Shown: in pieces, positions 53,360-63,920 of the stretch | Numbering within the stretch: the stretch's first letter is position 1 | Layout: each line of letters opens with the position of its first letter | NCBI RefSeq assembly: GCF_015354405.1 | Contig: NZ_JADKYP010000006.1 | Location: 124,001-188,000 of the forward strand | DNA: 64,000 bases | Source: Nocardia sp. BSTN01 | GTDB lineage: Bacteria > Actinomycetota > Actinomycetes > Mycobacteriales > Mycobacteriaceae | Reading direction: 5' to 3' | Made by a program: the position numbers and the translations under genes | Notes under the pieces: model-generated | What the model saw: only the letters and a program-made list of their open reading frames with translations | Told to the model about the DNA's origin: nothing | Databases searched by the model: none

Positions 53360-53517
53360 TTCCGGAACTCCTGGATGGCTGAAAACCTGTACGTCCTTCC
53401 GACGACGCAGCCGCCCGGAATGTCAGGCGGTGGGTGTGCCCGGCGGCTCGCGGTCGCGACGGTGGGTCGGGACCTGGTTGCGCGGTGTGCGGATCGGCGC
53501 TGGTTACGATCGTTTTC

Positions 53518-54006
53518 ATGCTGCGAGGACTTGCTGGTACAGCCGTGGTGGTCGGTGTGGCTCTGGCCGGGGCCGCGGGGCCGGGGCTGGCCGAACCCAC
53601 CCCCACCGCATTCGCCGCCGGCACCGAAGGACTGGATCCGCTGCTGGCCGCCGCCTACACGATGGCCGAACGCCAGGCTCATCAGCAGGGCGTGCCGCTC
53701 GAGATCGTGTCCGGTCACCGCACGCGCGACGAGCAGGAACAGCTGTGGGAGCAGGGCATCGCCACCTACGGCGGCCCCGACGCCGCGCGGCGGTGGGTGC
53801 TGCCGCCGGACGAATCCACGCACGTGAGCGGCAAGGCGATCGACGTCGGCCCGCAGCAGGGGGCGCAGTGGTTGCAGGACAACGGAAATCGGTGGGGGTT
53901 GTGCCGGACATTCGACAACGAGTGGTGGCACTTCGAGTTGCAGACCTTCCCCGGCGCCGCCTGCCCGCCCCGGTGGCCTGACGCCAGTGTCCGTCCGCAC
54001 CGATAG
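53518..54006 (+). CDS. Exported D-alanyl-D-alanine carboxypeptidase, VanY/M15 family
   Basis: 162 residues. Signal peptide (L-R-G-L-A-G-T-A-V-V-V-G-V-A-L-A-G-A-A-G, cleavage near L-A-E). M15 zinc ligands in S-T-H-V-S-G-K-A-I-D-V (H and D) and W-W-H-F-E-L (H). S-G-H-R-T-R-D-E-Q binds the substrate. It trims peptidoglycan stem peptides outside the membrane. Short, catalytic domain only. Confidence 0.9.
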   Translation: MLRGLAGTAVVVGVALAGAAGPGLAEPTPTAFAAGTEGLDPLLAAAYTMAERQAHQQGVPLEIVSGHRTRDEQEQLWEQGIATYGGPDAARRWVLPPDESTHVSGKAIDVGPQQGAQWLQDNGNRWGLCRTFDNEWWHFELQTFPGAACPPRWPDASVRPHR

Positions 54007-54162
54007 CGCGAAACTCGCGAATCGGATAGCTACCAACCGGTATTCAGCAAACTTTCGGAGACACGCCGATTGTCCTGTCCAATACCGGTGTGGCGCACTC
54101 GCGGATGGGGCACTGTAAATGTCTGGCGGTTTCCCGGCAGACGGGCCGGGACGCTCGAAGCG

Positions 54163-54468
54163 ATGGAGGTTCGGGTGCGAGGGCGGGTTCCGGTACGGCG
54201 GAGCGGTGCGATACGTGGCAATGCGGTGCACAGCGAGACCGGGCCGGAGATACCCACGGTCCAGCTGATCCCCGAGACCGGTCTGGCCTCGATTCCGTGC
54301 GGATGGCTGCTGCCGGAACTGCCCACCGCACTGCTCATCGCGGTCTTCGTCGGCACCGGCTGGGTCGGCTACGCCGCCTCCGACCGGCCGATTCCCGATC
54401 CGCCGCTGACCGTCGTGGTCGCACCCGGCGACCGGGATTCGTTGTCGGTCACCTTCGGCGATCGGTGA
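54163..54468 (+). CDS. Hypothetical protein with one membrane helix
   Basis: 101 residues from ATG 54163 (the frame is open from 54070). A helix at about 52-73 (A-L-L-I-A-V-F-V-G-T-G-W-V-G) is followed by a short Pro/Asp tail. Not recognisable. It occupies the place downstream of jetC where jetD would be expected, on the opposite strand. Confidence 0.5.
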   Translation: MEVRVRGRVPVRRSGAIRGNAVHSETGPEIPTVQLIPETGLASIPCGWLLPELPTALLIAVFVGTGWVGYAASDRPIPDPPLTVVVAPGDRDSLSVTFGDR

Positions 54469-54470
54469 GC

Positions 54471-54498
54471 CGCGCCGGGAGCGAATATGCCCGGCGCG
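54471..54498. terminator. Hairpin between jetC and convergent gene
   Basis: CGCGCCGGG (54471-54479) pairs perfectly with CCCGGCGCG (54490-54498) over a 10-nt loop, 13 nt past the jetC stop. It marks the end of the jet operon. Confidence 0.65.
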
Positions 54499-54511
54499 CA
54501 ACCGGTTACGC

Positions 54512-57500
54512 TCAGCTGGTCGGTTCCAGTGCCTCGTCGAAGGTGATGCCTCCCTCGACGGTGTGCGGGGTGCGGCGCCGGTTGGGCGAGCCCAGGGCGG
54601 TGGTCAGATCGGAGCCGTCGTGCTCGGCAAGCAGCGCCGAGGAATCCCAGACCAGCAGGGTCGCGCTGACGGTGTTCTCGGCCGCCGAATGGGCGAGATC
54701 GTAGTGCGCGCACGCGGGCACGTGATCGTAGGTGATCCACAGGTCGTAGCCGGTCATGAACAGGTCCAGATCGAAATCGACCGAAAGGCCGAGCAATTCG
54801 CTGCGACCGTTGTCGTCGACGCCGGCGAACGCCTCGTCCAGCGCGAGCAGTCGCGGCGCCTGCGGATCGGCCGAATCCAGCATCACGTGCGCGGCGGCGA
54901 ACAGCGGAAGATGCAGCGACACCGACTGTTCGCCACCCGAGAGCGCGCTGTGCCGCGCCACGGTGAGCCGATCCTCGGAGCCGTCGGCGGTCACCAGGGT
55001 GAACGAGAACACCCGCCAGGTGCGATAGTCCAGGGTGGTCGCCAGGATCTCCGGATAGGACCGTTCCGGATGGGCCGCGCGCGCCGCACGGATCTCGGCG
55101 GCGAAATGCGCACGCACCGTGGCCAATTCGCCGGGTCCCAGGTCGGCAGCGGCCCGGTCGAGCAGCTTGCACACCGCGCGCGCCGACTCCGACAGATTGT
55201 CGGCCAGCACCCAGTGCACGCCGATGGTGTTACCCGAGGACATGCGCCGCTGCTTCATCTCCGCGCCCATCCGGGCGATGAGATCGCGGGCATCGCAGGT
55301 GCGTTCGTGGATCTGCTGCGCGAGTCCGGTCAGCAGCGCGTCCTCGAGAATGCGGCGCTCGGCATCGGTGAGCAACAGTTCCTGATCGGCGCGGGCCGCG
55401 GCGATGCGGTCGGCGAAGTCGGCCAGCGCCGCCATCCCGTTGTCGTCGTGCACCTGCACCACGGTCAGGCCGTCGGCGGCATCCCACTGCAGGCGGTAGT
55501 CCTGGCGCGCGGAGGCCAGTGCGGCGTCGAATTCCTGCAGTGCCGCGGTCACCGCGCTGCGGGTCGACTTGCGGGCCGACTCCCCGGCGCGCACGGAAGC
55601 GGTGGCGGCGCGGAGGTTGTCGAACAACTCGTGCACCTCGACGGGCAGGACAGCGGTCTCACCCTCCGGCCCGCCGGATTCGATGCGATACAGCAGCTGA
55701 TCGGCGGTCGACCAGGCCGCCGGTGAACTCGGCCACCGGCTCTCGGTGGGCGCGCCCAGCAGCGAGAGCAGATCGGCCCGCGCGTAGGGGGCGAGTTGGC
55801 GGACGTCGCTGAGCAATTCGGTCAGCGCCGTGCCGAGGGACTCGTGAGCGGCGCGATAGGCGCCCTCGGCCGATCCGACCGCTTCGATCGCCTCGGCGGC
55901 GGCCTTGCGGGCGGCGCGCTGTTCGGCGCGGGCGGCGTCGATGCGCTCGCGGGCCTGCTCGAGTTCGCGGTCGATATCGGCGGCGTCGGCGCCCAACGCC
56001 TCGCGCAGCGTCTCGAGTTTGCGCGACTGCTCCTCGTAGCCGGCTCGGGCGGCCTCGGCCTCCTCGGCGAAAGCCTCGGCCAGATCCCGGGATTCGGCGA
56101 GCCGGTCGTTCGCCTCACGGGCGCGTTCGGCCTCACGCTGCTGGTCGCCGCGCAGCCGCAGCAGCGCGGTGCCGGTGTTCTCGAAATGGCGGACCGCCGC
56201 GGCGAGCGCGTCCAGTTCCGCGGGGTCGCGAGGCGCGTTGCGGGCGGCGGCGACCGCGCGCACCTTCTTGTCGGCCGCGGTGAACGCCGAGACGGCCTGG
56301 TCCAGATCATGTTCGGCCTGCGCGGCCGCCTCGGTATGCGAGCGCAGCACCCCCGCCGCCTCGGAGACCGACCGCAGCGCCGCGATCACCGCACTGCTGC
56401 GCGGCAACTCCTTCGCGGCGGCCGCCAGCCGGGCCAATTCGCCGGAGGCCTCGTCGGCGTCCGCGCGGGCGCTCTGTTCGGCCTGTTCGGCGGCGGTGAT
56501 CTCCTCGGTCAGCTCGGCCAGGCGCCGTTCCCGGCGCCGGGCCCGCGCGGTGGCGCCGATGAATTCCGCCTGCGGCTTGTGGTGGCGGCCGAGTTGCACA
56601 CCCTGCCGGAAACTCCCGTCGCCACCGACCGCGACGAGGTTCTCGGACACATGAGAGTCGTTGTCGCTCAGCGCGATCGAGGCCAGGATGTCGGCGAGAT
56701 GGATGCGCGAGACCGCGGCGATCGGCGAATCGGAATCGTCGCCGACACCGTCCTCGACGACCAGCAGTTGCGCGAGCGTGGGACCGACGGGCCGTGCACT
56801 GGGCGGGAGCGGCGTCAGGAAGACGTCCGAATCAGTCTGCGGCGCTTGGTCGTTCGCCGCGACCCAGGCGTCGAGCAAGCCCGCGGCCTGCACGGCGGCC
56901 TCGATCCCAGCGGCGCGCTCGGCGTCGACGTCGTCGGCGAAGCGCACCAGCCGCCACAGTGGCGCACCGGCACGGGTGGCCCGGGAGTCGGTGCGGCTCT
57001 GCGGTGCCGGGGGCGCGTCGTCCTGTTCGGCCGCGACCCGCTGGCGTTCGGCACGCAGCGCCGCGGCGCGGTCGCGCGCCTGATCGGCGGCCGCGCGAGC
57101 CTGACGGCGGCGGTCCCGCAGCGTTTCGGTGAGCGATTCGCTGTGCTCGGCCAGCACCTGCGGCAGCGGCGGCGCATCGTCACCGCCGGACTCTGCGAGT
57201 GCGGCGTCGAGCGCCTCGAACAATCCGGCGGCCACGGGGGAGTGCAGGTCGCGATGGATGTCCCACCAATTACGCAGGGACGCGGCGGTATTCGCGCGCG
57301 CCAACGCCACCGCGGCCTCCGCCTCGGCCAGTTCGGCGGTGGCGGTATCACGGTGGCGGCCCGCGCGTTCGACGGCGCGTTCCGCGCGGGTGCGGTCGGC
57401 CGCGGCGGCATCGGCCACCGTCAGCGCCTGGCGCACCGCGCGCACATCGGCGTCGCGTTCCTCGGCGTGACTGCGCACGGTAGTGGTGAGCTGTTCGGTG

Positions 57501-58735
57501 CGGGCCTGTTCCGGCAGCGCGGCCCAGGCGATTCCGGCTTCCTCGGCGGCCGCGCGCAGTTCGTCCTCACCTCGGGCCAGAGCCGCGGCGGCGGTGGTGA
57601 CCGCGGCGGCGGCGCGTTCGTATTCGTCGCCGCGCTGGTCGGCCGCCTGCTGGGCCTTGGTCGCCTTGTCGCGGTGGACCGCCGCCGAGGTCTCCAGCCG
57701 CCGCACCGCATCGGCCAGATCGTCGAGCTGCTGCTTGCCCTCGTAGGCGTTGGAACGCTGCAGCGTCTCCCGATCGGTCAGGGCCTGCTCGTAGGCGCGA
57801 TCGGCCTCCTCGGCTCGATGCTCGGCCGCGGTGCGCTCGGTCTCGCGTCGCTGCCGCAGTGCCGCGGCCGCGAACAGCGCCGTGCTGCCGTGGGTCACCG
57901 CGTCCAACCTTGAGCGCACCTGGTCCACATCCGACTTTGCCTGCACCGCAAGGTATTTACGATAGACGTCGACGAAGGTGCGAGTGGCGGAATCGGCGGC
58001 GACCAACCCCTCGAGCGTGCGGCCGACCTCCTCCATATCGCTGAACGAGCGGGCGGCGTCGAGGATCAGCTGATCGTCGAGCGGACGCAGACCGTCGGTC
58101 AGCGCCTGCGACAGTCCGCGCGGATCGAGGTTCTTGGCCAGCTGCGGGCGGCGCAGGGTCAGAATCAGATTGATCAACTGGTCGTAGCGCTGCACACCGA
58201 GACCGAACATGCGCGCGTCGATCGCGGCGCGATAGTCGACCGGGCGGTCCACGATCGCGTCGGTGCCGATCTGCTCGGCCAGCTGTTTGCGGGTGAAGGG
58301 CCGATCGTCGGGACCGATCAGCGAGAAGTCCACGCCCACCCGGCCGTCGGCCACGAAATACCACCGCGTCACCTTGTCCGAGGACCGGGTGGCACGCATC
58401 CCGATGCCGACGGTCACCACCTCGGGCTCCGACCAGCGCCCGCGCGCGAATTCCATCCAGACGTAGGAATAGGCCGAATCCTGTTTGCGATACAGCAGAT
58501 TCGACTTCATCGTGCGCTCTTCACCGGCGAACGGATTCAACCGGCGCGGCTCGATGCGGCCGTCGAAGACGAAGGGGAACAACACCTCCAGCGCCTTGGT
58601 CTTGCCGGAGCCGTTCGGCCCGCGCAGCACCAGCCGTCCGTCCGCGAAGCAGAATTCCTGATCCCGGTAGTCCCACAGGTTGACGATCCCGGCGCGGGTG
58701 GGAATGAAGCGGACACCACCGTGAATGAGGTCCAT
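54512..58735 (-). CDS. jetC: JetC-like SMC/MukB-type ATPase of Wadjet type II (TIGR02680)
   Basis: 1407 residues. Walker A G-P-N-G-S-G-K-T at 39-46, two long Ala/Glu/Arg coiled-coil arms around a hinge-like middle, then the ABC signature L-S-G-G-E-Q near 1275 and Walker B L-L-A-L-D-E-A-F-A-G-V-D. All ATPase motifs are intact. This is the SMC motor of Wadjet, which extrudes loops on circular plasmids so that JetD can cut them. Start 3 nt after the jetB stop. No jetD follows. Confidence 0.9.
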   Translation of the reverse strand: MDLIHGGVRFIPTRAGIVNLWDYRDQEFCFADGRLVLRGPNGSGKTKALEVLFPFVFDGRIEPRRLNPFAGEERTMKSNLLYRKQDSAYSYVWMEFARGRWSEPEVVTVGIGMRATRSSDKVTRWYFVADGRVGVDFSLIGPDDRPFTRKQLAEQIGTDAIVDRPVDYRAAIDARMFGLGVQRYDQLINLILTLRRPQLAKNLDPRGLSQALTDGLRPLDDQLILDAARSFSDMEEVGRTLEGLVAADSATRTFVDVYRKYLAVQAKSDVDQVRSRLDAVTHGSTALFAAAALRQRRETERTAAEHRAEEADRAYEQALTDRETLQRSNAYEGKQQLDDLADAVRRLETSAAVHRDKATKAQQAADQRGDEYERAAAAVTTAAAALARGEDELRAAAEEAGIAWAALPEQARTEQLTTTVRSHAEERDADVRAVRQALTVADAAAADRTRAERAVERAGRHRDTATAELAEAEAAVALARANTAASLRNWWDIHRDLHSPVAAGLFEALDAALAESGGDDAPPLPQVLAEHSESLTETLRDRRRQARAAADQARDRAAALRAERQRVAAEQDDAPPAPQSRTDSRATRAGAPLWRLVRFADDVDAERAAGIEAAVQAAGLLDAWVAANDQAPQTDSDVFLTPLPPSARPVGPTLAQLLVVEDGVGDDSDSPIAAVSRIHLADILASIALSDNDSHVSENLVAVGGDGSFRQGVQLGRHHKPQAEFIGATARARRRERRLAELTEEITAAEQAEQSARADADEASGELARLAAAAKELPRSSAVIAALRSVSEAAGVLRSHTEAAAQAEHDLDQAVSAFTAADKKVRAVAAARNAPRDPAELDALAAAVRHFENTGTALLRLRGDQQREAERAREANDRLAESRDLAEAFAEEAEAARAGYEEQSRKLETLREALGADAADIDRELEQARERIDAARAEQRAARKAAAEAIEAVGSAEGAYRAAHESLGTALTELLSDVRQLAPYARADLLSLLGAPTESRWPSSPAAWSTADQLLYRIESGGPEGETAVLPVEVHELFDNLRAATASVRAGESARKSTRSAVTAALQEFDAALASARQDYRLQWDAADGLTVVQVHDDNGMAALADFADRIAAARADQELLLTDAERRILEDALLTGLAQQIHERTCDARDLIARMGAEMKQRRMSSGNTIGVHWVLADNLSESARAVCKLLDRAAADLGPGELATVRAHFAAEIRAARAAHPERSYPEILATTLDYRTWRVFSFTLVTADGSEDRLTVARHSALSGGEQSVSLHLPLFAAAHVMLDSADPQAPRLLALDEAFAGVDDNGRSELLGLSVDFDLDLFMTGYDLWITYDHVPACAHYDLAHSAAENTVSATLLVWDSSALLAEHDGSDLTTALGSPNRRRTPHTVEGGITFDEALEPTS

Positions 58736-58738
58736 GGG

Positions 58739-60187
58739 TTACTCCGTCCCCTTTCCTGAGGTCCTGGATCCCGCCGCGCCGGCCGATGCGGTCGCCGGTT
58801 CCCCGGTGGCGTGCGCGCCCAGCGATCGCGCCGAGGCGAACAATTCGGATTCGGCCCGCGTGCGCACGGTGACCACCGCGCCACGGTAGCGAGCGAGCGC
58901 GGGCAGGGCCAGGACACCGCCGTCGACCGTCTCCACGAGGGACAACCGCGCCAGCAGACCGACCACCTCGGTGGTGAGCCCGCCCACATCGGCCTGCCAC
59001 TGGGCGGCGAAGGTCGAACCGTACCGCTCGGTGAGCGCGTGCACCGTCGCGCGAATCCACTCGTCGTCGACGAACGGATGGGTGATCGGCTCGGGGCCTT
59101 CTTCGTCGTCGGCCGGATCTTCGGCGTCGACGGGTTCCTGCGGCGCCGTGACCAGGGGCGCGAAGACCGTGGCCGCCGGAATGGCGGCATCGAGGCCGTC
59201 GGCGATGCCGGTGGCGGCGGGCGGGCGCGGTCGGCGTGGCAGCGGATCATCGATGTCGAGGACCCGGTCGGCGATCTCACCGATCAGCAGCAGCGCCACC
59301 TGCGCGAGCGTTCCGGTGCCGGGGAAGCGCACATCGGAGAACCGCCCCGAGGTGTCGATCAGGGCCACGCCCTCACCGCGGCGTTCGGCGCGCAGCCCGG
59401 TCAGCAACTCCACCTCCGCCACGATCTTCTCGCTGCCCAGCGCGGATTGCTCGGCCGCACCGAGGGTTTCGGTATAGACGACCGGCAGTTCGATCAGCGC
59501 CCGCCGTACCCGGCGCGCGGCCGCGGCCCGCGACGGCACGGAAGTCGTTGCGGCGGAATCGGTGTCGTCGGCGAGCAGCGTACGCACACTGTGCAGATGC
59601 TGCAACGCGCGCGGTGGCCGGAAGATCGCGAACACCACCGAGCGGTCGATGTCGTAGAGGGCCTCACCCGCTTCCGGGTCGGCCGCCCAGCCGCCGGCGT
59701 CGCCGTCGGCGAGGGACAACGCGCCGCGGGCGGCCAGCCACGCCACCGCGTCCACGAACGCGTCCCGGTCGGCGGCCCGTTCGGTCGACAGTTCCAGCCC
59801 CTCCACCCGCACGGCGTAGGCGGCGACCTGATCGGCCAACTCCGACAGCGTGATCTGGTCACCGGCGCGACCGAGCGCGGCCAGGGCGAGCGACAGATAG
59901 GCGTAGCGGCGCCGGTCGAAGACGCGATCGGCGGGGGTGCGGGCGGGCCGGCCGGTGTCGAGCCGGTCGGAGATCGGGAACAGCCGCGCCGTGGTCTCGG
60001 TGACCTCGAGCCGGTAGCCGAGCAGTTCGGCCATATCCTCGCGCAGTTCGGTGGCCCAGCGCCGAATCAGCGGCAGCGCAATGCGATCCGGGAAGGTCCG
60101 CGTCACCAGATGATTGGCCAGCATTACCCGGGCGGCGCGCTGGTAGCTGTCCAAGGCCAGCGGGTCGATGGTTGTCGCGTGCATCAC
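58739..60187 (-). CDS. jetB: JetB-like subunit of Wadjet type II (DUF2398/TIGR02678)
   Basis: 482 residues, winged-helix MukE-like accessory protein. Recognisable stretches are A-R-V-M-L-A-N-H-L-V-T-R-T-F-P-D, then R-R-Y-A-Y-L-S-L-A-L-A-A-L and the late Q-W-Q-A-D-V-G-G-L. GTG at 60187 or ATG at 60184; either overlaps the jetA stop, so translation is coupled. Ends 3 nt before jetC. Confidence 0.87.
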   Translation of the reverse strand: MMHATTIDPLALDSYQRAARVMLANHLVTRTFPDRIALPLIRRWATELREDMAELLGYRLEVTETTARLFPISDRLDTGRPARTPADRVFDRRRYAYLSLALAALGRAGDQITLSELADQVAAYAVRVEGLELSTERAADRDAFVDAVAWLAARGALSLADGDAGGWAADPEAGEALYDIDRSVVFAIFRPPRALQHLHSVRTLLADDTDSAATTSVPSRAAAARRVRRALIELPVVYTETLGAAEQSALGSEKIVAEVELLTGLRAERRGEGVALIDTSGRFSDVRFPGTGTLAQVALLLIGEIADRVLDIDDPLPRRPRPPAATGIADGLDAAIPAATVFAPLVTAPQEPVDAEDPADDEEGPEPITHPFVDDEWIRATVHALTERYGSTFAAQWQADVGGLTTEVVGLLARLSLVETVDGGVLALPALARYRGAVVTVRTRAESELFASARSLGAHATGEPATASAGAAGSRTSGKGTE

Positions 60188-61797
60188 GACCGCCCGGAGG
60201 CGGTACGGGCGCGGGAATTCTCGCGCACCTCGAGCCGGCGGTGATCGAGATACAGCAGACCCTGGGCGGTACGCACCACCGTGGACCCGGGATGTTCGCG
60301 GACCGTCAGCGTGACGCCGCTGTCGGAGCCGGTCGTGCTCACCCGGCCGCTCACCGGAACCCAGGCGGTGGAGGCGGCGTCGAGCAGTCGCAGCAAAACT
60401 TCGGTTTCACGTTCGTCCAGGACCCGATCGTGCACGTTGGCGGCGGCCAGCGACATCGCGGCCGCCGCGCGGGCCCGCTGCGTCTCCAGTTGTGCCTGGC
60501 GCAGCCGCCGCACCCCGGCGTCGTTGCGCACGAGCCGCGCGGGCGCGCCCGGAGTGGGCTGGCGGCCGGTTTCGGCGAGCGTGCGCGCGATCTCCAGCGG
60601 CGCTGCCTCCCACCAGGATCGGTGAGCGGGAATGATGTCGGCGTCGGGATGCTCCATCGACAGATGCCGCGGTTTGCCCAATCCGAATACGACGTCGAAC
60701 AGGGCGTGCGCGCTGTCGGTGGTGGGCGCGGCGGCGAACCAGCCGGCCAGATGCCGCAGCGCCGACTCCCGGCTCACCCCGCCCTTGCGCGTTTCGGTCA
60801 CGCGGCGCAGCAGCGACAGCACCGCGGCGATCGCGCTCATGGTCGCCTCCCGCAACCGTTCGGCCTCGGTCGCCGGCGCGGATTCGGCGCCGGGGTCGGG
60901 CGCACCGCGATCGCGGACCGCGACGAACCATCCGCGCAGCCCCTGCCAGCGGGCCCGCCAATCCGCCTCGCGCGCCGCGACGTCGAGCAACACCCGCTCG
61001 TCACAGGACGCGGCCCGGCTGATCAGCGACTCGGCGCCGGTGTCGTCGACCTCGGCGATCGCGGCCGCCAGCCGGGGCGCGTAGCGAGCCAGATCCATAC
61101 TGAATTCGCGCATATGCGCCAGCAGCGCATCCTTGTGTGCCAGAAAGGCTTCCGGCGTGGCCTCGGTCGTGCGGACCAGATCGCCGAGGGTCAGATAGAA
61201 ATGCGCCGCGCGGTCGGCCAATTCGGACAGCGCGGTGTCGAGCCGCTTCAGGATCCGATACACCCGCTCGGCGTCGCCGTCGCGATTGGCCTGCGCCAGC
61301 GCCTGCAGATCGGCCAGCAGTTCCGGAAGCACCAGCCGCGAGAGTGAGGCCTCGTCCAGGCGCGCGCCCAGTACCTCGTTCACCGCCCGATACGCCTGAA
61401 ATCCGGCCTGCGAGAACTGATAGACGTAGTGCCGGTTGCGATATTCGGCGAGCGTCGCCGCGCGGGTGCCGTCGTAACTGCGTTCCAGCACACCCCAGGT
61501 GTGCAACTGCTCGAGCAGCGGACCGATCTCGGTGGCGGTGGAATGCGGGGCATCCGGCATCCGAGCCAGGGTGTCGGCCACATCGGAGGCGTGCAGCAGC
61601 ACCACATAGGCGGCGCGGGCGTGGTCGAATGCGCGCAGCACCCACAGATAGTCGTTGCGTTTGTCGGCGGTGGCGAAGGAGAACAACCGCAGCCGGTCCG
61701 CGCCCTCGATCACGGTCTCACCCCGGGTGGGGGAGACGCCGTCGAACAGTGCGGGTTCGGCCGGCAGCAATCGGTCAGCGGACTCGGTCACCGGCAC
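60184..61797 (-). CDS. jetA: JetA-like kleisin subunit of Wadjet type II (DUF2397/TIGR02677)
   Basis: 537 residues from GTG 61797; GTG at 61833 gives 12 more. The MukF/kleisin-like protein would bridge JetC heads and recruit JetB. Family-type stretches: L-R-L-F-S-F-A-T-A-D-K-R-N-D-Y, Y-V-V-L-L-H-A-S, and the conserved end G-L-L-Y-L-D-H-R-R-L-E-V. Upstream on the same strand, 54 nt away, lies a DUF2127 gene. Confidence 0.87.
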   Translation of the reverse strand: MPVTESADRLLPAEPALFDGVSPTRGETVIEGADRLRLFSFATADKRNDYLWVLRAFDHARAAYVVLLHASDVADTLARMPDAPHSTATEIGPLLEQLHTWGVLERSYDGTRAATLAEYRNRHYVYQFSQAGFQAYRAVNEVLGARLDEASLSRLVLPELLADLQALAQANRDGDAERVYRILKRLDTALSELADRAAHFYLTLGDLVRTTEATPEAFLAHKDALLAHMREFSMDLARYAPRLAAAIAEVDDTGAESLISRAASCDERVLLDVAAREADWRARWQGLRGWFVAVRDRGAPDPGAESAPATEAERLREATMSAIAAVLSLLRRVTETRKGGVSRESALRHLAGWFAAAPTTDSAHALFDVVFGLGKPRHLSMEHPDADIIPAHRSWWEAAPLEIARTLAETGRQPTPGAPARLVRNDAGVRRLRQAQLETQRARAAAAMSLAAANVHDRVLDERETEVLLRLLDAASTAWVPVSGRVSTTGSDSGVTLTVREHPGSTVVRTAQGLLYLDHRRLEVRENSRARTASGRS

Positions 61798-61851
61798 GAG
61801 CGTAATACCTGCCCGCGCGCCGCGGCGGCGCACCCGGGCCTCGGCGTGCCG

Positions 61852-62616
61852 TCACCCCGCCTCGGTGGCGACCGCGGAGCGTTCCACGGTCAGCAGGCTC
61901 TCCTCGCTGTGCTCGCGGTGGTAGGCGGCGCCACCGCCGTTGAGGCCGAACAACCGCTTCGACCACAGCAACCAGAGCACCGCGGCGACATTGATCACCA
62001 GGGCACCGGCGCGGACGACGGTGATGCGCTCGGTGAGCTCATAGATCTCGAGCGGCAGGAACAGCGAGGTGGCGATCACCGCGAAATACTCACCCCAGCG
62101 CTGCACGTACCACAGGCCCACGGCCTCCACGAATTCGATGACGGCATACGCCAGCAACCCCACCGCGATCCAGGTGAGCACGGTCGGTGACAGCGTCCAG
62201 CCCTTCTCGATGAACGCGACGATCTTGGAATTGTCGGGATTCCAGCCGATCTGGTCGGCGAGCGGGCGGATCAGCGGCAGCTCCCGATCGAATGCGGCAT
62301 GCAGTTGCTCCTGCGAATTGCGTACCTTGAACACCCCGGCGGCCAGCACCACGAACACCAGCCCGCGGATCACCCGTTCGGCGGCCAGCAACCGCATGAT
62401 CAGCCGGTCGCGCAGCAGCCGCCCACGCGGCACCTCGGGCGCCGCATCGGCCGGGCCGCGCCCGCGCGGCTCGCCGATCACGAAATTCCCGCAGCGCAGA
62501 CACCGCCAGGCCTCACCGGCGGCCGTCGAAACATGCAGGCGCGCAGCCAGTTCCGCTTCGTCGGGGGCGTAGGTGGCGTGCCCGTGCCACGAGCAGCTGC
62601 GCAGACTGAAGTCCAT
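61852..62616 (-). CDS. DUF2127 membrane protein with N-terminal Cys/His motif
   Basis: 254 residues. An N-terminal soluble segment with C-S-W-H-G-H and C-L-R-C-G could bind zinc. About four transmembrane helices follow (G-L-V-F-V-V-L-A-A-G, L-T-W-I-A-V-G-L-L-A-Y, Y-F-A-V-I-A-T-S-L-F-L, V-I-N-V-A-A-V-L-W-L-L). Function unknown. It lies between the regulator and jetA on the same strand and could be co-transcribed. Confidence 0.83.
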   Translation of the reverse strand: MDFSLRSCSWHGHATYAPDEAELAARLHVSTAAGEAWRCLRCGNFVIGEPRGRGPADAAPEVPRGRLLRDRLIMRLLAAERVIRGLVFVVLAAGVFKVRNSQEQLHAAFDRELPLIRPLADQIGWNPDNSKIVAFIEKGWTLSPTVLTWIAVGLLAYAVIEFVEAVGLWYVQRWGEYFAVIATSLFLPLEIYELTERITVVRAGALVINVAAVLWLLWSKRLFGLNGGGAAYHREHSEESLLTVERSAVATEAG

Positions 62617-62687: not shown

Positions 62688-63920
62688 TCAGCTCATCGAC
62701 AGCACCCGCAACTGCTCGAGATAGGTGCGGGTGCGGGGATCGGACGGATAGCGTTCGATCATCTCCCGCGCCGCCTCGCCCGCGATCCACAGCAGCGACG
62801 GCAGCGAGCGGCGCTTGCCCTCGAACGCGCGCATCGCCTCGTCGACCGCGAGCTCCAGATCGCGATCGCGAACCGCCACCACGGCCAGGGTCAGCTGTGC
62901 CTCGGAGACGCGCATCGGCTGACGGACCGAACCGTCGAGGCCCGTGGCGCTGCGGATCACCTGGCGGGCATAGGCTTCCGCCGGGCGATTGTCACCGGCG
63001 ACCCGGGAGCAATCCATGGCGTAGAAATCGAATTTCTGCGCGTCGACGACGAAATGGTTGTCCAAATTTGCCGGATTGTCCAATTGTCGCAAGATATCTC
63101 GGCCGCGTTCGAGCGCGCGTTCCATCGCCTCGCGATCGCCGATGCGCGCCCACGCCTTGGCCTGCTGCGCGGCCAGTTGCACGCCGACACCCATACCGCG
63201 GCAATTGTCGAGGGCGGACTCGGCCACCTCGATCGCGCCGCGGTAATTGCCCTGGGTGATGGCGAACCACGCCGCCATTTCCGCACCCCAGCCGACGATT
63301 TCGGGATGTTCGGCCTCCTGGCCCAGCGACAGCGCCGCGCGGCGGGTCGCCTCCGCGGCGGTGCGCCGGCCCAGGTCGTAGTCGACGCATCCGACCAGCA
63401 ACGCCACCCAGCCGGCGAGGACCAGCACTTCGCGATGCTGCGCCAGGGTCAGCCGCCCGTCGAGCAGCGAGGTGATGCGCCGCAGCCACGCGGTGCCCTC
63501 GGTATGCAGTTCGTGCGGGTCGGCGAAGGGATATTCGCAGCACAGCCGCTCGGCGGTGATGCGAATGGCATCCAATGTGGCCGAAGAGATGTCGGACATC
63601 CGCAGCCGGCCGATGAACTCCAGCGTGTCCATTCCCGTTGACGACAGAAGTTCGTCGTCCCGATTGGGGCGCGCCTTGGGGAAAAACGCCGCGGTGACGG
63701 TGTCGAATGCCGCGGCGATGATCGGCGCGTAGAAATCGTCCGGGCGCGACTCGCCCGATTCCCAACGGCGCCAATTGCGTAGGAGGGTACTGTCTGTCGG
63801 CAGGTTGTGGGATGACTTCGCGCGCATCGCGCGGACGGCATCCGCTTGGGACCACCCCCGCGCGTCTCGTTCGGAGCGCATCCTGACAGCCCAGACGGGT
63901 CGATCGTCACTCACGGCCAC
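62688..63920 (-). CDS. BldD/XRE-like regulator with TPR-like domain
   Basis: 410 residues. The N-terminal HTH (V-R-M-R-S-E-R-D-A-R-G-W-S-Q-A-D-A-V, N-W-R-R-W-E-S-G) is followed by about 300 residues of helical TPR-like repeats. This protein type is abundant and largely uncharacterised in Nocardia and Streptomyces. ATG/GTG region at 63920; the promoter would lie in the last 80 bp of the window. It may regulate the downstream DUF2127/jet genes. Confidence 0.84.
   Translation of the reverse strand: MAVSDDRPVWAVRMRSERDARGWSQADAVRAMRAKSSHNLPTDSTLLRNWRRWESGESRPDDFYAPIIAAAFDTVTAAFFPKARPNRDDELLSSTGMDTLEFIGRLRMSDISSATLDAIRITAERLCCEYPFADPHELHTEGTAWLRRITSLLDGRLTLAQHREVLVLAGWVALLVGCVDYDLGRRTAAEATRRAALSLGQEAEHPEIVGWGAEMAAWFAITQGNYRGAIEVAESALDNCRGMGVGVQLAAQQAKAWARIGDREAMERALERGRDILRQLDNPANLDNHFVVDAQKFDFYAMDCSRVAGDNRPAEAYARQVIRSATGLDGSVRQPMRVSEAQLTLAVVAVRDRDLELAVDEAMRAFEGKRRSLPSLLWIAGEAAREMIERYPSDPRTRTYLEQLRVLSMS

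Follow-up and report, generated by a model that had tools for sequence, protein, structure and literature searches.

A jetABC module lacking jetD in Nocardia, a candidate nuclease-free derivative of type II Wadjet

A stretch of 64,000 nucleotides from Nocardia sp. BSTN01 (contig NZ_JADKYP010000006.1, positions 124,001 to 188,000), called here the window, hosts the genes jetA, jetB and jetC of a type II Wadjet system, unaccompanied by jetD, which encodes the nuclease subunit. The module is somewhat better read as a type II Wadjet derivative that is inherited vertically and works without a nuclease, likely an accessory condensin-like complex, than as a plasmid destroyer, and its conservation patterns suggest that the motor performs a job of its own.

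The jetABC module and jetD in Nocardia genomes

The three genes are intact open frames, together spanning 54512-61833 on the minus strand. jetA (60184-61833) encodes a kleisin-type subunit of the DUF2397/TIGR02677 family, 549 amino acids long if counted from a GTG codon; the real start may lie further downstream. It overlaps by 4 nt jetB (58739-60187), which encodes a KITE-type subunit of 482 amino acids (DUF2398/TIGR02678), and 3 nt separate jetB from jetC (54512-58735), which encodes an SMC-type ATPase of 1407 amino acids (TIGR02680). The original prediction, drawn from the letters of the window, had recognized in these overlapping or abutting genes the JetA/B/C set of type II Wadjet, with an intact ATPase and no adjacent jetD, and all these points are borne out. 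JetA scores 238.6 bits against TIGR02677 (curated cut-off 165.85), JetB 139.3 bits against TIGR02678 (124.65) and JetC 764.1 bits against TIGR02680 (462.85), so that all three proteins match the type II models; Pfam (DUF2397, DUF2398, SbcC_Walker_B) and PADLOC (JetA2, JetB2, JetC2) agree. The Walker A (GPNGSGKT), signature (LSGGE) and Walker B (LLALDE) motifs of JetC are located at positions 39, 1265 and 1296, respectively. The AlphaFold model of JetB is poor (mean pLDDT, the predicted local distance difference test, 56.7). A tblastn search of the window with the JetD of the same genome gave nothing significant (best E 1.7), and the operon lacks the JetD expected of type II Wadjet.

The genome hosting the window (7.79 Mb, 99.65% complete), from which whole-genome JetD counts were taken, has exactly one TIGR02679 match, on contig C121, with a DUF2399 match at the same place. 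This search had been proposed along with the prediction, one option being that jetD sits elsewhere. A JetD does exist elsewhere; it heads, however, a second complete type II operon, jetD-A-B-C (L005:9195-17356), and belonging to another operon it cannot account for the conserved JetD-less pattern described below. Both loci are of type II, but the C121 operon is complete, with jetD in first position, and its JetA, JetB and JetC share 28%, 29% and 31% identity with the window copies, which lack JetD. The canonical SMC is encoded separately, on contig C134.

The survey was extended to 119 genomes of the genus Nocardia. JetA matches were found in 106; since six genomes have a distant paralogue only, the orthologue (72% identity or more) is present in 100 of 119. 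Loci of N. mikamii, N. africana, N. kruczakiae, N. aobensis, N. elegans and N. nova encode JetB proteins 95-97% identical to that of the window, which belongs to the N. nova group. Four JetD families were screened: TIGR02679 is matched in 36 genomes (29 of which host the jetA orthologue), DUF2399 (PF09664) in 39, DUF3323 (PF11796) in 35, and PF09983, the type I/III JetD domain, in 25. In none of the 100 orthologue-bearing genomes does a TIGR02679 JetD lie within 1 Mb of jetA on the same contig, the nearest distance being 1.04 Mb. A type I/III JetD serving the locus was discarded, as inspection of contigs and coordinates revealed no PF09983 match near it. TIGR02679, PF09664 and PF09983 have no match at all in 56 of the 100 genomes, 55 if a sub-cut-off PF11796 match in G072 is counted. 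These figures support another of the options first listed, that JetABC is used alone.

Forty-one loci, 27 of them from Nocardia, were read in detail. Ten of them carry JetD, namely nine outgroups and G417. Searches of all 41 by tblastn and, using a JetD profile, by hmmsearch --max were aimed at a JetD too divergent to be recognized or an intact jetD lying just past a sequencing gap; both were rejected, the best E outside the ten carriers being 3.3; the contig of G402 stops inside jetC, which leaves the JetD status of that locus undecided. No gene constantly adjoins jetC in these loci, and a substitute nuclease encoded downstream of it finds no support there.

JetABC might recruit an outside nuclease, be it a JetD encoded in another operon or an enzyme of a different kind, as had also been envisaged in the original prediction. 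This is regarded as improbable. A TIGR02679 JetD is indeed encoded elsewhere in the 29 jetABC genomes mentioned, the window genome included, and residues putatively contacting JetD are not eroded. On the other hand, more than half of the orthologue-bearing genomes lack any JetD match, as counted above, and in 24 of the 36 genomes with TIGR02679 a paralogous JetA lies, by inspection, within about 7 kb of JetD. The JetDs of G086, G063 and G087, which had looked like orphans, are divergent matches located in ABCD operons (jetA of G086 is cut by the end of the stretch). In G019 jetABC was called, and JetD was not found by the gene caller. Finally, the neighbourhood of jetC speaks for no different nuclease, an unlinked enzyme being possible. 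As a separate observation, the operons of G086, G063 and G087 (L158, L159 and L161), brought to light by weak JetD matches, represent yet another divergent lineage of type II JetABCD in Nocardia, the third. JetC was also sought on plasmids, and none of 18 records reached 80% query coverage.

Presence and loss of jetD in related genera

When 84,980 species genomes were searched with an alignment of JetA, 278 relatives emerged, the best 80 of which make up the set of named loci; they were ranked by likeness to one Rhodococcoides JetA, and the sample is uneven. jetD lies directly past jetC in 23 of them, 45 are JetD-less, a score given only where at least 1.3 kb had been read beyond jetC, and 12 are undecided. 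The JetD-less loci come from Nocardia (21) and from Rhodococcus, Prescottella, Antrihabitans and others (24). Rhodococcus and allies account for 47 of the decided loci. In one branch of the JetABC tree, that of R. fascians and allies ('Rhodococcoides'), 22 of the 23 members carry jetD; R. tibetensis carries it as well, and the remaining 23 loci do not. The branch member without jetD is R. kyotonense KB10. Its flanking sequences are 81-82% identical to those of R. kyotonense JCM 23211, which has jetD, and the gap at the jetD site measures 52 nt in the former and about 1.2 kb in the latter.

The comparison of synteny suggested with the prediction shows a conserved JetD-less locus and, in carriers, a jetD placed immediately after jetC. 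Non-Nocardia loci have, within the stretch read, genes that, going by their sequences, are of metH or PAC2 type upstream (39 of 49) and of mshC type downstream (41 of 49). In all 23 carriers jetD is located between jetC and the presumed mshC-type gene. Outgroups of the order with the same subtype have jetD after jetC in 9 cases out of 10, and in the tenth JetA and JetD are on different contigs; G143, which has a truncated JetA and no JetD match, was excluded from the tally. Five genomes of the same family as Nocardia, outside the genus, were considered: TIGR02679 has no match in G183, G276, G364 and G402, and jetD is present in G417.

JetA, JetB and JetC were concatenated to build a tree from 99 of 112 loci, 13 being omitted because of short or broken genes. 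If jetD is ancestral, the tree implies 6 losses (Dollo parsimony), at least 4 when weak branches are collapsed; if the JetD of R. tibetensis was regained, losses are reduced to 4, at least 3 with weak branches collapsed. The favoured history, which rests on synteny and trees, is that jetD would be ancestral and would have been lost repeatedly, while JetABC was retained. The loss of jetD, the first option of the prediction, is hence supported in the form of repeated losses.

Alternatively, jetD may have been initially absent, or lost once early, and later acquired by the R. fascians-type branch and by R. tibetensis. This history is held to be unlikely, but carries some weight. With free regain, Fitch parsimony requires a minimum of 4 changes, compared with 6 Dollo losses; permitting a loss followed by regains, it weighs against repeated loss. 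Moreover, the JetD of R. tibetensis is equally distant from those of R. kyotonense JCM 23211 (45.2% identity) and of the outgroup G196 (45.7%), unlike its JetC, 69% identical to the former and 49% to the latter, and it sits on a long branch, a feature about which the tree program gave a warning. The long branch and this mismatch add to the weight of the regain hypothesis. Against it, same-subtype outgroups hold jetD at the same place, adjacent in 9 out of 10. In addition, the JetD tree joins R. tibetensis to the R. fascians-type branch with support 100/99.7, apart from outgroups and paralogues, and a clade of G196 and R. tibetensis is rejected (approximately unbiased test, p-AU 8.8e-07). Repeated loss of an ancestral jetD is retained as the favoured history. 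It is an even question whether Actinobacteria repeatedly dropped jetD from a conserved chromosomal locus, several times in Nocardiaceae and perhaps once more in another family, and thereby made a third kind of bacterial SMC, distinct from both canonical SMC-ScpAB and Wadjet, one that would organise or silence DNA without cutting it.

JetD-less loci were also noticed in g39, a genus of another family, where eight loci (L162-L169) with jetABC of a different subtype all lack jetD after jetC. These loci had been chosen, non-randomly, for a short JetA, and six have no nearby JetD match; in G284 and G213 a match lies about 6 kb upstream, apparently in a separate operon. A conserved gene of 150 amino acids precedes the module in 8 of 8 loci, and a regulator-like gene of about 1000 amino acids follows in 6 of 8. 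The g39 locus keeps a conserved position, and its JetD-less state, seen in type II genes of a divergent lineage, may have arisen independently.

Selection, operon end and chromosomal site

As judged from substitutions, JetABC is under purifying selection in the absence of JetD. The ratios of nonsynonymous to synonymous substitution rates (dN/dS) obtained by comparing the window with five close relatives are 0.05-0.11 for JetA, 0.11-0.25 for JetB and 0.10-0.14 for JetC, and neighbouring genes give similar values. Medians calculated over a wide dS range are 0.17-0.24 in JetD-less groups versus 0.05-0.11 in JetD-carrying groups. As the closest Nocardia pairs give 0.05-0.12, no difference between the groups is read into these medians.

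The ATPase motifs are retained nearly throughout the loci. An apparent gap at Walker A in 11 alignment rows is an artefact of start calling in 10; in the eleventh, L140 (N. crassostreae), Walker A was not found. Residues conserved in JetD carriers have been lost in Nocardia at 8 of 148 positions in JetA, 3 of 100 in JetB and 10 of 323 in JetC, and none of these losses is common to JetD-less Rhodococcus. An erosion of JetD-contact residues was looked for, and no clear one emerged.

Some loci are damaged. jetC is broken in G072 (L048, three frames) and in R. jostii NBRC 16295 (L100, two frames), either by decay or by sequencing errors, and jetB matches fall in two frames in L140. Together with the lack of the orthologue in 19 of 119 species, these cases could denote a functionless, decaying Wadjet remnant. 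This is a very improbable explanation: the other 11 short jetC frames among the 112 loci stop at contig ends, three short JetA frames are explained by the choice of the start, and dN/dS values are well below 1, as in neighbouring genes.

The end of the operon is likely marked by a perfect hairpin (54471-54498, minus strand), made of a 9-bp stem and a 10-nt loop. It had been described as a perfect terminator hairpin beginning 13 nt beyond jetC, followed by a small gene on the other strand. Its perfection (9/9 bp) and its distance from the jetC stop are as described (54498-54471); the next gene, on the other strand, is an open reading frame of 132 amino acids (54070-54468, plus strand) with no family match among TIGR, Pfam and PADLOC models. 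The hairpin is not followed by a T run, and by folding energy it stands out only mildly (z -1.5, equalled by 16 of 200 shuffled sequences). A scan for terminators identified 3 sites versus 2.7 expected, the hairpin not being among them, and a scan for sigma-70-type promoters gave no sites. Hairpins with a stem of at least 8 bp are found within 80 nt past jetC in 17 of 45 JetD-less named loci and in 0 of 23 JetD-carrying ones (Fisher p 0.0003, kinship of loci being uncorrected), a pattern that would suit a rebuilding of the operon end following the loss of jetD. In R. erythropolis and R. opacus relatives, the perfect hairpins straight after jetC are very long, with stems of about 20-23 bp and z about -9 (L090:17088-17150, L096:17013-17070).

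The module occupies a fixed chromosomal site. Downstream, past the small open reading frame, a VanY-type carboxypeptidase gene was identified by profile matches (53434-54006, plus strand); within the stretch read, 20 of 27 Nocardia loci have a VanY gene on the downstream side of jetABC, at times with intervening genes. On the other side, a gene encoding a DUF2127 membrane protein (61852-62616, minus strand) precedes jetA at a distance of 18 nt; reading in the same direction, it is possibly co-transcribed with jetA, beside which it is found in 9 of the 41 loci. Further upstream is the gene of an NsdA-family TPR regulator (62688-63920, minus strand), which precedes jetABC in 26 of the 27 Nocardia loci and is retained in 18 of the 19 Nocardia genomes without the jetA orthologue. 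Its dN/dS (0.03-0.06) is the lowest or near-lowest among the genes compared. Twelve empty sites were read, and no traces of JetABC were found in them. In 11 of them under 300 nt separate the NsdA-like gene from the VanY gene; in G115 the distance is about 3.4 kb. Since the flanks are kept while the module is absent, jetABC is gained or lost as a single unit.

Proposed function and comparison with known systems

According to excerpts of PMC10586767 and PMC12647877, the JetABC complexes known so far extrude DNA loops and, once the extrusion of a circle is completed, switch on JetD. In the window module JetC (ATPase), JetA (kleisin) and JetB (KITE) would still assemble an ATP-driven DNA-loading complex, expected to extrude loops as its known counterpart does. 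Without a JetD to switch on when extrusion ends, the complex would compact or tether DNA instead of cutting it. Its role would be accessory and non-essential, beside the canonical SMC, by analogy with MksBEF of Pseudomonas aeruginosa. Three observations weigh against this proposal. The absence of the orthologue from 19 of 119 species argues against an important role in the chromosome; conserved residues are nearly all kept, so that there is no footprint of a dropped contact with JetD; and the contact residues so preserved leave room for a nuclease acting in trans.

The main rival to a condensin-like role is a non-cutting anti-plasmid activity. Small circles would be reeled in and compacted, with lower transcription, copy number or segregation as the outcome; human Smc5/6 acts on episomes in such a non-cutting manner. 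Silencing of this sort seems unlikely, if less so than the recruitment of an outside nuclease. It would suit a motor and conserved residues that are nearly unchanged, a module gained and lost whole, in the manner of defence genes (11 of the 12 empty sites have flanks under 300 nt apart), and closest JetD-bearing relatives that are of the plasmid-defence type. Strains listed as Wadjet-carrying, nevertheless, host small circles: a 5.9-kb circular plasmid is found in R. erythropolis NI86/21 (excerpts of PMC12915292), and circles of 4.4 and 2.8 kb in R. opacus B4, also listed in print. The jetABC loci read come from other strains of the two species (L089, L097) and are JetD-less. The small circular plasmids of NI86/21 and B4 would fit a lost ability to kill plasmids, as expected of the condensin-like complex proposed here.

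The Wadjet definition of PADLOC requires all four genes (PMC9252829, in part). The DefenseFinder result for NI86/21 lists three proteins as Wadjet_II (PMC12915292, Table 4), which probably correspond to the same locus type as that of the window; the excerpts of this paper carry no remark on the absent JetD. No description of such a JetD-less Wadjet was found among the titles, abstract openings and excerpts given by full-text searches, in a literature with few subscription papers and no preprints. Excerpts of a survey of Actinobacteria report Wadjet in 42% of them, and state that 73% of Rhodococcus genomes encode Wadjet, a restriction-modification system and either Eleos or PD-T4-3 (PMC10482375). 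As a three-gene locus has been listed as Wadjet_II, such counts may be inflated, and a locus of Nocardia or Rhodococcus annotated as 'Wadjet' may in many cases be nuclease-free. A natural JetABC without JetD, having close JetD-bearing relatives, makes the cellular role of the motor itself testable, and bears on the passage of SMC complexes between chromosome organisation and immunity, a paradox posed in PMC10586767 (excerpts).

With type II Wadjet the window locus has in common the JetA, JetB and JetC families, the A-B-C order and the ATPase motifs. JetC matches the solved JetC 9qe0_A (9qe0/9qe1; E 1.6e-69) and JetA matches 9qe0_E (1e-19); the profile search with the window JetB matched no solved JetB relative. 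We infer that 9qe0 is the structure of the type II system of N. vireti (nvJET) cited in the excerpts of PMC12647877. The difference from type II Wadjet is JetD: none is encoded beside jetABC in the window, and 56 of 100 orthologue-bearing Nocardia genomes have no match to TIGR02679, PF09664 or PF09983. Among SMC complexes without a cutting partner, MksBEF of P. aeruginosa is assumed to organise the chromosome, and MksBEFG of Corynebacterium glutamicum acts on plasmids (PMC7083940, in part); a four-gene mksFEBG operon occurs in Pseudomonas too, as stated in excerpts of PMC10123090, which makes the analogy loose. The window locus is, like MksBEF/MukBEF, a nuclease-free operon for a kleisin-KITE-SMC set. 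These complexes belong, however, to a different, type I-like family: the window JetC is not an SMC of the MksB/MukB type, its best JetC1 score being 37.6 bits and its best JetC2 score 1456.8 bits.

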